Source: a virus
IMG/VR virus record: IMGVR_UViG_3300035667_000105
Span: 1 to 53,931 of that record
Direction: 5' to 3' (one strand)
Length of the DNA: 53,931 nucleotides
Every line of letters starts with the position of its first letter. Positions within the stretch are counted from its first letter, which is position 1. Of the stretch, positions 39,655 through 53,931 are shown piece after piece. The notes below the pieces were generated by a model. It was not told where the DNA came from. It searched no databases and saw only the letters and a program-made list of their open reading frames with translations. The position numbers and the translations under genes were made by a program.

Positions 39655-39680
39655 AGAGGCCGCCGATCGCGGCGGCCTCT
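39655..39680 (-). terminator. Hairpin separating accessory region and late operon
   Basis: AGAGGCCGCC (39655-39664) and GGCGGCCTCT (39671-39680) form a perfect 10-bp stem with a 6-base loop. Read leftward it follows the small basic gene at 39707 by 26 bases and is followed by CTCATTG, so it can end that transcript, although the U-tract is weak. Confidence 0.5.
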
Positions 39681-39706: not shown

Positions 39707-39820
39707 TCAGCGCTTGGTGGTGCGCTTGGTTGCTGACGACCTTCGCGCCGTGGACTTTGCCGGACGTTTCGCCATCTTCATCTTGGCGGCCGGCTTGCGT
39801 TTCGTTGTGCTCGTGGCCAT
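39707..39820 (-). CDS. Very small histone-like peptide, 37 aa (copy A)
   Basis: ATG at 39820 with AGGAG five bases upstream. Product MATSTTKRKPAAKMKMAKRP then AKSTARRSSATKRTTKR: about 40 percent Lys/Arg, rich in Ala, Ser and Thr, like the tails of H1- or HU-like peptides. A degenerate second copy lies at 40132-40245. DNA or RNA binding is likely by composition. Confidence 0.6.
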   Translation of the reverse strand: MATSTTKRKPAAKMKMAKRPAKSTARRSSATKRTTKR

Positions 39821-39883
39821 GCTGGCTCCTGTGTCAACGCAGGCAAATCACCTGCAGCACAGAGAGAATCACGGTCGACTCGG
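39731..39883. repeat. Duplicated block, copy A, with nested palindrome
   Basis: About 150 bases nearly identical to 40158-40308. It covers the 5' part of the 37-aa gene and its leader. A 50-base core from TCCTGTGTC to CACGGTCGA is identical. Within it lies a nested inverted repeat: CTGTG (39829-39833) with CACAG (39858-39862), and GCAGG (39839-39843) with CCTGC (39851-39855). Confidence 0.85.
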
Positions 39884-39908
39884 TCGATCAAGAGTCGGGA
39901 GCGCACGA

Positions 39909-40163
39909 ATGGTAGACGTTGAAGCAATCCGCAGAATACACGAAGCGCGGCTAACGATAGCCAAAGCCTCCCAGATTGATTACGCGGATGGCATCCAATG
40001 CATGGTGGACTGCACCGAGCTACTGCAAGAGATCGCTCGGCTCAATAACGAGGTGGCCGATCTGAACGGGTTGATCGCTGCATACCGCAAATGGGCGCGC
40101 GAGTGTCCGATCTTGGAGATGCCGGGCGTGATTACCTTGGGAAATACCGAACAGGCCTGCTGA
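39909..40163 (+). CDS. Small coiled-coil protein, 84 aa
   Basis: Starts MVDVEAIRRIHEARLTIAKA 25 bases after repeat copy A. The middle (CTELLQEIARLNNEVADLNG) is a short coiled coil and ends ECPILEMPGVITLGNTEQAC. No clear Shine-Dalgarno site. Its 3' end overlaps the antisense relic peptide. Function unknown. Confidence 0.55.
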   Translation: MVDVEAIRRIHEARLTIAKASQIDYADGIQCMVDCTELLQEIARLNNEVADLNGLIAAYRKWARECPILEMPGVITLGNTEQAC

Positions 40164-40245
40164 CGTCCTGCGCGCCGTGGAACTTGGCCGGACGTTTCGC
40201 CTTCATGTTGGCGACCGGCTTGCGTTTGGTAGTGCTCGTGGCCAT
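40132..40245 (-). pseudogene. Degenerate second copy of the 37-aa basic peptide (copy B)
   Basis: Starts MATSTTKRKPVANMKAKRPA, matching copy A for its first 21 residues. One extra T in a stretch matching AAGTCCACGG of copy A then shifts the frame, so the end reads KFHGAQDVSRPVRYFPR. The AGGAG leader is retained. It looks like a duplicated gene that has lost its original C-terminus, although a 37-residue product is still encoded. Confidence 0.6.
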
Positions 40246-40308
40246 GGTCTCTCCTGTGTCAACGCAGGCAAATCACCTGCAGCACAGAGAGAATCACGGT
40301 CGATTCGG
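40158..40308. repeat. Duplicated block, copy B, with nested palindrome
   Basis: Second copy of the block at 39731-39883, offset about 426 bases. The nested palindrome is conserved without change (outer arms 40254-40258 and 40283-40287). As in copy A, a rightward gene begins 20-25 bases beyond the block and a leftward basic peptide begins inside it. Confidence 0.85.
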
Positions 40309-40330
40309 CGACGCAAGATGGAGATGCTCG

Positions 40331-40666
40331 ATGCCGTTGGTGAACTTGAGTGACGACGATATTTTTACGCTGCGGGCGGCGGTTGAAAATCTTCGTTCTC
40401 CGGACAAGGCGCAAGAGCGAACCATCGAAGCCGCATGGCGCATTGCCTCCAAGCTTGAAGCGATAACGGCCCGGACATCGGCAGCGGGGCCGGCATTGAA
40501 AGACAGACTGCTAGGAGTTGCGCTTTTGTCGCTGATAGCCGGCGCAATCTTCGGTCTCGTAGCAGCGCACATAGGGACTGCGATGTCTCTCGCAAGCACA
40601 ATCGGCGCTTTCCTTGCCATTGCCCTGGTGTGGCGGGTCTTGTTTACAAAGGCTGGTGTCCGATAA
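40331..40666 (+). CDS. Two-span membrane protein, 111 aa
   Basis: N-terminal cytoplasmic helix region (LSDDDIFTLRAAVENLRSPD, TIEAAWRIASKLEAITARTS) followed by two hydrophobic segments (LLGVALLSLIAGAIFGLVAA; MSLASTIGAFLAIALVWRVL). Starts 22 bases after repeat copy B. The stop codon is inside a 34-base palindrome. Possibly a superinfection-exclusion type membrane protein, by analogy only. Confidence 0.6.
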   Translation: MPLVNLSDDDIFTLRAAVENLRSPDKAQERTIEAAWRIASKLEAITARTSAAGPALKDRLLGVALLSLIAGAIFGLVAAHIGTAMSLASTIGAFLAIALVWRVLFTKAGVR

Positions 40667-40686
40667 CGGCGGTTATCGGACACCAG
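40653..40686. repeat. Perfect 34-base inverted repeat
   Basis: Arms CTGGTGTCCGATAAC (40653-40667) and its exact complement (40672-40686) surround a 4-base loop. The TAA stop of the 40331 gene lies in the first arm. No U-tract follows on either strand. It may be a terminator without a tail or a recombination or protein-binding site; the intact recombinase lies 250 bases away. Confidence 0.7.
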
Positions 40687-40939: not shown

Positions 40940-41866
40940 TCAAAGAAAATCCCCGCCGGCGTGGGTGTCGAAGTCGTTCTCGCGCCGGTCGTATTCCTTC
41001 AACGTGTCGACCTTCACGTGGCAGGTGATCGGCATGATCTTGAGCGGGTCGACGCCGGCATCGAGCGCCGAGGTGACGAAGCCGGCACGCAGCGAGTGTC
41101 CTGAGAAAACCTTCGCATCGATGCCGGCGGCCGCCACGGCGCGTTTGACGATGCGGGCGACGTCGCGATCGGAAAGCCGCTGCTCGAGCAGCGCGCCGGA
41201 TCGGTGCACCGATCGGAAAATCGGGCCTTCAGTGATCCCGGAGGCGTTCAGCCAGGCTTCGAGCGCGTCGACCGGCCGCAGCGCATTGCCGCGCGGCACG
41301 GGAATAAACGCGCCCTTGCCCTCCTGGTCCGTCTTGGACCGACGTTTATGCAATACCACGCCCTTGCGGCGCCATTCGATGTCCGGAACATCCAGGGCGA
41401 CCAGCTCGGAGCGGCGGAGCGCCGCGGCGAACCCCATCAGTACGATGGCGCGATCGCGGTGGCCTGCGAGCGTGTTCGGAAACACCGCCTGCAGCTTGGT
41501 GATGATCTCGGCCGTCGCCGGCGCCTTCTTGGTCGGTCTGGTGCCAAGCGTGCGCCGGATCCCGCGCATCGTCGCCTTGACGCCTTCGGCGTTGGTTGGC
41601 GGCTCTTTGTTGGCGGCCAGGTGAGCCGCCCGGATTGACGCCACGTGTCGCTGAATGGTTGCGGCCTTCAGCCCGCGATCGGCGAGCTGGGCCAGATAGC
41701 GGGCCACCGCGATGGGCTCCGCCGGCATACTGTTCAGACTTACAGTATCGCACCAGGCGCAGAAGTCGGCCCAATCCGATTTGTAGGCGCGCCGGGTGCC
41801 GACAGCTTTTTCGGCCTCGATATAGGCGCGGACCGATGCTCGCGGGTCGACGAGTTCGGTGGGCAT
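40940..41866 (-). CDS. Tyrosine recombinase/integrase (intact)
   Basis: Encodes 308 residues. Residues 8-105 form the SAM-like core-binding domain (VRAYIEAEKAVGTRRAYKSD). The catalytic domain has all expected residues: Arg 151 in AALRRSELVAL, Lys 178 in RRSKTDQEGKG, His 257 and Arg 260 in GHSLR, His 283 in TCHVKVD and Tyr 292 in LKEYDRR. The form resembles XerC/D-like integrases. It probably replaces the broken integrase at 1-1326 in integration and excision, unless it serves resolution of multimers. No attachment site can be proven within the window. Confidence 0.9.
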   Translation of the reverse strand: MPTELVDPRASVRAYIEAEKAVGTRRAYKSDWADFCAWCDTVSLNSMPAEPIAVARYLAQLADRGLKAATIQRHVASIRAAHLAANKEPPTNAEGVKATMRGIRRTLGTRPTKKAPATAEIITKLQAVFPNTLAGHRDRAIVLMGFAAALRRSELVALDVPDIEWRRKGVVLHKRRSKTDQEGKGAFIPVPRGNALRPVDALEAWLNASGITEGPIFRSVHRSGALLEQRLSDRDVARIVKRAVAAAGIDAKVFSGHSLRAGFVTSALDAGVDPLKIMPITCHVKVDTLKEYDRRENDFDTHAGGDFL

Positions 41867-51923: not shown

Positions 51924-52558
51924 GGCCGCCTCGCTGCGTTGATGCTGTCGATTGCGAGCCGCCCGATCGGCGGCTCGCCCATCAGCTCTGCGGCAGCGCT
52001 GGCATGCTCCGGATAGCCGTCCCGGCGCGGATCGAATGCGGCATTGCGCGGATCAGGCCCGCGCGCTTGGGAGCCGCTGCCGTTGTTTCGCGCGGCGCCG
52101 CGCAAGATCCGGCGCGGGTGCAGATACTCGTACAAAATTCCGACGCGGCTTGCTGCGACGTCCCGTTTTGGCCCCGTCCGCGCGTTTTCGCGGCCGGCCC
52201 GCTTGCCACTGCGCCAGCGTCTCATGTCGGCGAAAACCGACAGCAGCTTCAGGTCCGCGAGGCACTCGATCGAAACCACCCGCGCCTGCGGATGTTCGGC
52301 GCCGTACAGCGCGAAAGCCGTGGCCTCGAGCTCGAAGCCGACTTCCTCGCGGATCGCGGCCACGGCGAACGCCACTTCGCGCGCGTTCATGCGGCGGCCG
52401 TTGCTCTCTTGGAATGCCGTCAGCTGCGTAGCGATATCGCCGAACGCCAGGTCATAGGGCGCCTCGGCAAAGGCGCGCCGGATCTCCGCCGGCAACGCAT
52501 CGAACGCCGCAAAGTCCGCGTCCTCGCGCCACCCGGCCCAACCGCCATTGTTGCTCAT
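51920..52558 (-). CDS. Hypothetical protein, 212 aa
   Basis: Helical N-terminal two thirds (FAAFDALPAEIRRAFAEAPY, ATQLTAFQESNGRRMNAREV, FAVAAIREEVGFELEATAFA) and an Arg/Ala-rich, less ordered end (RNAAFDPRRDGYPEHASAAA). Overlaps the methyltransferase stop and the DUF5131 start (ATGA both). Perhaps a partner of either enzyme; no domain identified. Confidence 0.6.
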   Translation of the reverse strand: MSNNGGWAGWREDADFAAFDALPAEIRRAFAEAPYDLAFGDIATQLTAFQESNGRRMNAREVAFAVAAIREEVGFELEATAFALYGAEHPQARVVSIECLADLKLLSVFADMRRWRSGKRAGRENARTGPKRDVAASRVGILYEYLHPRRILRGAARNNGSGSQARGPDPRNAAFDPRRDGYPEHASAAAELMGEPPIGRLAIDSINAARRP

Positions 52559-53931
52559 GGCAGCACCACGGCCGCAGGAATCGCCACGCCGAAGTCATAG
52601 GCCGCGCCGTCGACCAGGCGCACGAGGCAACCCCGCCCGTTCTTCGCGATTCTGGCCTTTGCCATTTTCGCGTATTTCCGGTTTTTCTCGATCAGGATGG
52701 AGTTGCGGCCTTTGAGAGCCGCCACCAGGCCGGTCGTGCCGGCGCCGGCGAAAGGATCGAGCACGATTCCGCCGGCGGGACAGCCGGCCAGGATGCACGG
52801 TTCGATCAGCGCCGGCGGGAACGTCGCGAAGTGGGCTTCCTTGAAGGGTTGGCTCGCGATCGACCAAACGCTGCGCTTGTTGCGCCTGGCTACCAGGCCG
52901 CCGGTTCCGATCGCTGCGTCGAACTTTTCGTTTTGCTTTGAAACGGTACCGGTACCGTTGCCATAATCACTCAGCTTGCGCCGGCCTAGGCGATGGACCG
53001 AGCCATGATGACCAGCGCCATCGTCCCAGCCTGTGGGCGCCAGAATCGGCGCGGCGGCCACACGCGCGTGGCTGTTCGGCGATGACGGCTCCATGATGGC
53101 TTCGAAGTCGTAATAGTAATCGAACCCGCTCCACAGATTAAACCGAAACCAATCTTTACCTACTTGCGGTTTTGCCGAGAGCTCGCGCGTAATCCGGTGG
53201 CGCCAGCGCCATTCGGGGGCTGGCTTATCCTCAACCCATATTCCGGTTTCGTCATGCCGCCAGAGCAATGTGTTTCCTGATTTTGTCAGCAGGAAAACGT
53301 ACTCGTGCGCGGTGGTTGGCCGGTCGTAAACCGTTTCCGGCATCGGGTTCTTTTTGTGCCACACGATGTCTCGGCGCAGATACCAGCCGGCTTCCTGCAG
53401 CGCGAGCGCGGCCCGCCATGGCATGCCCATGAGGTCCTTTTCCTTGAACCCGAGTGCAGCGGCGTCGAATGGGTTGTCGACGAAACGATGGTCGTAGCCA
53501 TCATCCTTGTATCGGGCGGCCGACCAGCCGCTGCGACGTGTCGCATATCTGTCGCCCATATTCAGCCAAAGGGTGCCATCATCGCGCAGTACCCTGCTGA
53601 CTTCGCGGAAAATCTCGACCATATGCGCGATGTAAAGTTGGTAGGTCGGCTCAAGGCCGAGGCATCCGCGCCAGGCAATGCAGCGGCGGCAGAAGCTCGA
53701 AGGGGACCGCGCTGGCTTACTACTTTTTTCCCACCTGTGCCGGCATCCGGGAGATCCGCCCCAGATCGAAGCCGCGACGCCGAAGTCCTGAGCGCCGTAG
53801 TAGGGCGGGCTGGTAGCGACGGTCTGCACAGATCCCGCCGGCATCCTGCGCAGCACGTCGAGGCAATCGCCGACGACGATCTCGACGGACGAAACAGACT
53901 TAAGATCGTTGGCTGAAAGCTGGAGGTTCAT
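52555..53931 (-). CDS. Site-specific DNA methyltransferase (N4-cytosine or N6-adenine)
   Basis: Encodes 458 residues. Motif IV TSPPY lies at 40-44 (QTVATSPPYYGAQDF) and motif I DPFAGAGTTG at 392-401. With motif IV before the target recognition region and motif I near the end, this is the beta order; TSPPY is more common in N4-cytosine enzymes. No restriction endonuclease is adjacent, so it is an orphan enzyme that may protect phage DNA or regulate. The ATG is the final base triplet of the window; with the window closed into a circle it would follow the integrase TAA directly. Confidence 0.9.
   Translation of the reverse strand: MNLQLSANDLKSVSSVEIVVGDCLDVLRRMPAGSVQTVATSPPYYGAQDFGVAASIWGGSPGCRHRWEKSSKPARSPSSFCRRCIAWRGCLGLEPTYQLYIAHMVEIFREVSRVLRDDGTLWLNMGDRYATRRSGWSAARYKDDGYDHRFVDNPFDAAALGFKEKDLMGMPWRAALALQEAGWYLRRDIVWHKKNPMPETVYDRPTTAHEYVFLLTKSGNTLLWRHDETGIWVEDKPAPEWRWRHRITRELSAKPQVGKDWFRFNLWSGFDYYYDFEAIMEPSSPNSHARVAAAPILAPTGWDDGAGHHGSVHRLGRRKLSDYGNGTGTVSKQNEKFDAAIGTGGLVARRNKRSVWSIASQPFKEAHFATFPPALIEPCILAGCPAGGIVLDPFAGAGTTGLVAALKGRNSILIEKNRKYAKMAKARIAKNGRGCLVRLVDGAAYDFGVAIPAAVVLP

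Follow-up and report, generated by a model that had tools for sequence, protein, structure and literature searches.

A block of about 150 bases that occurs twice in this viral DNA (a stretch of 53,931 nt, hereafter the window) carries the control region of what appears to be a portable one-gene cassette of temperate phages. On the leftward strand, a leader RNA hairpin takes in the Shine-Dalgarno sequence (SD) and the start codon of a tiny basic peptide gene, and promoter-like boxes overlap the 5' arm of this hairpin. Comparison with 14 other IMG/VR contigs that have the leader in common, and with a distant, reversed member (L227), shows that the cassette recurs as a unit, that its RNA arms pair and co-evolve, and that the box spacing and a pair of GANTC sites are retained. 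We propose, as a serious possibility somewhat short of probable, that the start-masking hairpin silences RNA reading through from upstream, and that RNA begun at an internal promoter, without the 5' arm, is translated, as in genes e and soc of phage T4.

Within the window, blocks A (39731-39883) and B (40158-40308) are about 90% identical and are offset by 425 to 428 nt from small indels. Their longest stretch without a difference measures 53 nt (39826-39878 and 40251-40303), in agreement with the original prediction, made from the letters of the DNA, of two copies some 426 bases apart with a 50-base identical core. The nested inverted repeats that it described (CTGTG-N5-GCAGG-N7-CCTGC-N2-CACAG) occur exactly twice (39829-39862 and 40254-40287), against 0.02 expected by chance in the window with three mismatches allowed. 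As it also stated, the outer arm overlaps the AGGAG ribosome site, and the palindrome is intact in copy B despite the frameshift of its peptide, whose frame stays homologous for only some 22 residues; that the copy B open reading frame is again 37 aa long is a coincidence. Around the block, Pfam and PHROG searches recognized a tyrosine recombinase, an HNH protein and the small and large terminase subunits (Table 1).

Table 1. Coordinates of the leader copies and neighboring features in the window.
Feature	Position	Strand	Basis or remarks
Leader hairpin, copy A	39817..39874	-	Consensus fold, single-sequence folds, covariation
Copy A, helix 1	CCGTG 39870-39874 with CATGG 39817-39821		Holds start codon
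Copy A, helix 2			C/U-rich arm with CACAGGAG
Copy A, apical helix	TGCAGGT 39850-39856 with GCCTGCG 39838-39844		Loop GATTT
Leader hairpin, copy B	40242..40299	-	Helices as copy A, offset 425; 53-nt run identical to A
SD AGGAG of peptide A, inside helix 2	39826..39830	-	Sequence
Tiny basic peptide gene A, 37 aa, intact (MATSTTKRKPAAKMKMAKRPAKSTARRSSATKRTTKR)	39707..39820	-	Open reading frame; kept in 14 relatives
Peptide gene remnant, copy B	40132..40245	-	Start retained, homologous frame gone after ~22 residues, no terminator
Promoter-like boxes, copy A	39866..39891	-	TTG 39889-39891, GAGTC 39877-39881, GATTC 39866-39870
Promoter-like boxes, copy B	40291..40316	-	TTG 40314-40316, GAATC 40302-40306, GATTC 40291-40295
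Terminator-like hairpin 3' of peptide A, abutting the next gene's ribosome binding site	39656..39679	-	Stem GAGGCCGCCGCGATCGGCGGCCTC, fold
Rightward gene between copies, 84 aa	39909..40163	+	Open reading frame; no family in Pfam/PHROG searches
Rightward gene past copy B, 111 aa	40331..40666	+	Open reading frame; no family in Pfam/PHROG searches
Tyrosine recombinase (integrase)	40940..41866	-	Pfam PF00589 and PHROG integrase matches; synteny in relatives

The further claim that only the non-coding element is under selection, and not the peptide, does not hold. The peptide is kept in the 14 relatives, and the differences between the copies at leader sites (3/50) and in the coding part (8/84) are not significantly distinct (Fisher p = 0.54), so that copy B alone gives no sign of selection on the leader. 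The divergence between A and B is about equal to that between copy A and its relative in L105, and thus the 53-nt identity by itself proves nothing. Copy B is explained as a duplicate or recombinant copy, formed by duplication or by unequal recombination with a related phage, in which the control region was kept and the peptide lost. A merely recent duplication, with identity that reflects age and a leader devoid of function, would agree with the lack of a significant difference between leader and coding parts, but we give it hardly any credence: the core is conserved, with covariation, in the 14 other contigs, which refutes this explanation.

Relatives were gathered with four kinds of query: the large terminase, the integrase, an integrase alignment and the core sequence, whose search elsewhere in phages had been advised at the outset. 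Together these searches led to the 14 virus contigs that share both the leader and the order of its parts. The exact arm pattern had no match in IMG/VR; a relaxed pattern recovered members in viral contigs and was absent from 84,980 bacterial and archaeal species genomes. An RNA model built from 10 sequences retrieved diverged members, with E-values that are rough due to a short calibration, and an RNA model run against 397 genomes from a single order, an insensitive search, gave no match. Blast against named phages and plasmids returned chance matches only, and the integrase relatives found in bacterial genomes lack the leader. Matches in L193-L198, L200-L207 and L209-L210 were inspected and judged to be due to chance.

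The cassette consists of TTG and GATTC boxes separated by 18 nt (usually with CGANTCG between them), the hairpin, the SD, an ATG, a Lys/Arg-rich peptide of 31-41 aa and, usually, a terminator. Typically the integrase is followed by variable genes, then by leader, peptide and terminator, and after these by a small protein that carries HAWL close to its start (HAWL protein) and by the packaging genes. The integrase is upstream and co-directional wherever the contig covers that side, except in L227 and perhaps L108, and in L222 and L226 the leader directly follows the integrase stop codon. The large terminase varies among members, from TerL_ATPase/TerL_nuclease in the window to the gpA type in L105. 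In L227 (5770-5990) the cassette relative is reversed inside structural (late) genes, and in L108 (1-290) a glycosidase-like gene, which may be host DNA, has its stop codon ahead of the cassette's inverted repeat. The carriers are temperate phages, probably of Alphaproteobacteria, a host suggested by the GANTC sites, by integrase relatives in Methylobacterium and other genomes, and by a helicase closest to that of a Caulobacter phage.

Phage morons are autonomous promoter-gene-terminator inserts. Like them, the cassette is found between a given pair of genes in some phages and is missing there in others (L085, L091, L225 and L241, whose integrase directly adjoins HAWL), and it has promoter-like boxes and a terminator of its own; it differs from morons in its structured, start-masking leader. 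The terminator is a stable hairpin found 3' of the stop codon in most members; none follows copy B, and it is not evident in L219. A simple terminator scan of the window did not list the hairpin of copy A because its tail, TCTCATTG, has no T run. The 15 peptides, of 31-41 residues and with a high content of Lys, Arg, Ala and Thr, can be aligned on KRKPA and ARR and have no Pfam, NCBIfam or PHROG family; they are probably nucleic-acid-binding, resembling DNA-binding peptides.

That the element acts as RNA, one of the options of the original prediction, is supported by a structured leader RNA which is kept outside the window with co-evolving arms. The RNAalifold consensus comprises three nested helices on the peptide strand that take in the SD and the start codon; it exceeds the two nested repeats initially described by a third, outermost helix (CCGTG/CATGG) that includes the start codon. 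In an alignment-free arm-swap test, own arms gave -23.0 kcal/mol and foreign ones -16.4 kcal/mol (0/100,000 permutations; inner arms 0/50,000, outer arms 62/50,000), counts that are not strict probabilities as the member sequences are related. In a 15-sequence alignment, itself fitted to the RNA model, 96% of the cells were paired and 13 were compensatory, against 3.1 in shuffles, and control structures slid along these sequences were paired in 28 to 52%. In nearly all members the leader strand is more stably folded than its shuffles, with z from -1.8 in copy A, a modest gain (opposite strand, -1.2), to -6.7 in L224. Rfam yielded no family at gathering score, and a lax scan gave chance-level matches only. 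An RNA thermometer (ROSE, FourU) or a known Rfam leader was considered and rejected, no curated covariance model having been reached.

A DNA operator or recombination site, in which a protein binds the palindrome and possibly acts in both directions, is very unlikely on this evidence. Its perfect nested repeats and the divergent rightward genes of the window had made it attractive, but the arms change while pairing holds (e.g. CTCCGTGT/ACACGGAG in L222), which largely refutes it, and the better fold is that of the peptide strand. The two-way operator originally suggested is likewise unsupported: rightward neighbors differ or are absent in relatives, the 84-aa and 111-aa genes have no relatives beside other members' leaders, no divergent gene pair is conserved, and in L222 and L226 what precedes the leader is the end of a co-directional integrase gene.

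Upstream of the GATTC box, TTG is found at a distance of exactly 18 nt in 14/16 members and TTC in the other 2, and columns further upstream are poorly conserved; in L227 the spacing is 17. A consensus sigma-70 promoter scan found none at the leaders, so that a promoter is what we infer here; its -10-like GATTCY, at a short spacing, fits sigma-70 poorly. We likewise infer where RNA starts and that read-through is silenced in vivo. The motif between the boxes, CGANTCG in most members, contains GANTC, the methylation site of CcrM. In the window GANTC is seen 94 times against about 250 expected (0.38 of expected, about 2.6-fold depleted), the lowest ratio among 16 palindromic XYN motifs. GANTC-N6-GANTC pairs number just two in the 53.9 kb, one at each leader copy, and most members likewise have such a pair at their leader. 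The first site, which usually fits YGAKTCG, is missing or displaced in L108, L218, L222 and L226 (4/16), and the second is GGTTC in L106. Strong depletion of GANTC, to 0.17-0.55 of expected, was observed in all checked loci of this phage group. N6/N4 DNA methylases, which could be GANTC-specific, are encoded at 52555-53931 of the window (minus strand) and at L217:3114-3908.

In the mechanism that we propose, RNA from upstream, e.g. from the integrase gene, would fold into the long three-helix hairpin, pairing the SD and start codon of the peptide, and no peptide would be made. Given that the promoter-like TTG-N18-GATTC, with its methylatable GANTC, overlaps the 5' arm, RNA begun just after GATTCY would lack that arm, leave the start free for translation of the basic peptide, and end at the terminator before the packaging genes. 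Without the 5' arm, the start region is predicted to be unpaired with a mean probability of 0.57 instead of 0.28, a gain that is partly trivial, and the SD of peptide A with one of 0.59 instead of 0.07. Selection on the outer arms implies that there is longer RNA as well, in keeping with read-through out of the co-directional integrase gene. The reversed cassette of L227, inside late genes, speaks against the proposal, as integrase read-through cannot apply there.

The same logic of hairpin and internal promoter is known for T4 e, soc, 49 and I-TevI (PMC3014915, PMC2988022), in which long transcripts from upstream hide the ribosome binding site and start codon in a hairpin. A promoter, or in the cassette a promoter-like site, lies over the 5' arm, such that short transcripts would be translatable. 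The cassette matches the e/soc type in that its hairpin covers SD and start codon and its pairing is kept by compensatory change. It differs from the T4 leaders in being carried by temperate phages, in encoding a tiny basic peptide and in having host-type boxes with GANTC rather than a T4 late promoter, and it is known here from sequence alone.

Two other readings of the leader have to be weighed. In one, all transcripts start upstream of the hairpin of an ordinary regulated 5' leader, and this hairpin is opened or locked by a ligand, an RNase III cut, temperature or, by feedback, the peptide. A covarying hairpin that spans SD and start codon would be expected of such a leader, the basic peptide could bind it, and many members share the loop TGATTTG. 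However, L218, L222, L226 and L236 do not have this loop, no upstream promoter is seen, no Rfam family matches, the stability of the stems (near -30 kcal/mol) is high for a thermosensor, and the fixed boxes over the 5' arm would go unexplained, all of which renders this reading rather unlikely.

In phage lambda, pR'-6S-tR' provides a short transcript and a terminator ahead of the late genes. A comparable arrangement, with the promoter driving the packaging genes, the terminator blocking them until antitermination and the hairpin forming part of the switch, would account for the co-directional position of the cassette just before HAWL and the packaging genes, with a terminator-like hairpin preceding the next ribosome binding site, and for its retention although the large terminases differ. 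It is also in line with the GcrA-dependent 26-gene prophage operon of Brevundimonas, which includes packaging genes (terminase, portal) (PMC7987155). We nevertheless consider it improbable: no antiterminator was identified, and the cassette, which differs from the lambda region in coding for a peptide, is reversed within the late genes of L227 and absent from the four close relatives in which integrase adjoins HAWL.

Returning to the proposed internal promoter within the hairpin, for methylated promoters that GcrA activates YGAKTCG has been cited as the motif (PMC7987155), and GANTC sites, commonly in this form, occur in the promoter-like region of the cassette. Alphaproteobacterial GcrA/CcrM promoters such as mipZ and ctrAP1 similarly contain GANTC, paired as here in the case of mipZ (PMC3667746, PMC7987155). 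In contrast to these, the cassette sites are on phage DNA and overlap an RNA hairpin, and their methylation and GcrA binding are assumed. By analogy, the leader may be under CcrM/GcrA methylation control. It is conceivable, if doubtful, that these phages read the cell-cycle GANTC mark of the host at a promoter placed over a hairpin that masks the ribosome binding site, so that a given methylation or replication state would be needed for the peptide to be made, and read-through RNA would never yield it.

The leader constitutes an RNA family absent from Rfam, with its own covariance model, and is coupled to a new family of tiny phage peptides. It further provides a connection, open to testing, between epigenetic timing in the host and the control of phage genes, and it raises the possibility that the promoter-in-hairpin silencing of T4 had a separate origin in temperate phages.

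Two further elements deserve mention. A perfect inverted repeat (CTGGTGTCCGATAAC-GGCG-GTTATCGGACACCAG) at 40653-40686 of the window, at the end of the 111-aa gene, is a candidate recombinase core site. Similar repeats with a 6-bp spacer are found 3' of the integrase in L083, L084 and L214-L218 and twice around that of L105, and related ones near the integrase relatives L124 and L183. A role of the window's repeat as an attP split on integration is weakened by its being intact, and followed by packaging genes, in the isolate-derived L215 and L217. L215, L217 and L111 have another leader in common, GGGAGCGCGTGCTCAGACCACGCGG, which is hairpin-like and located just before the small terminase gene.
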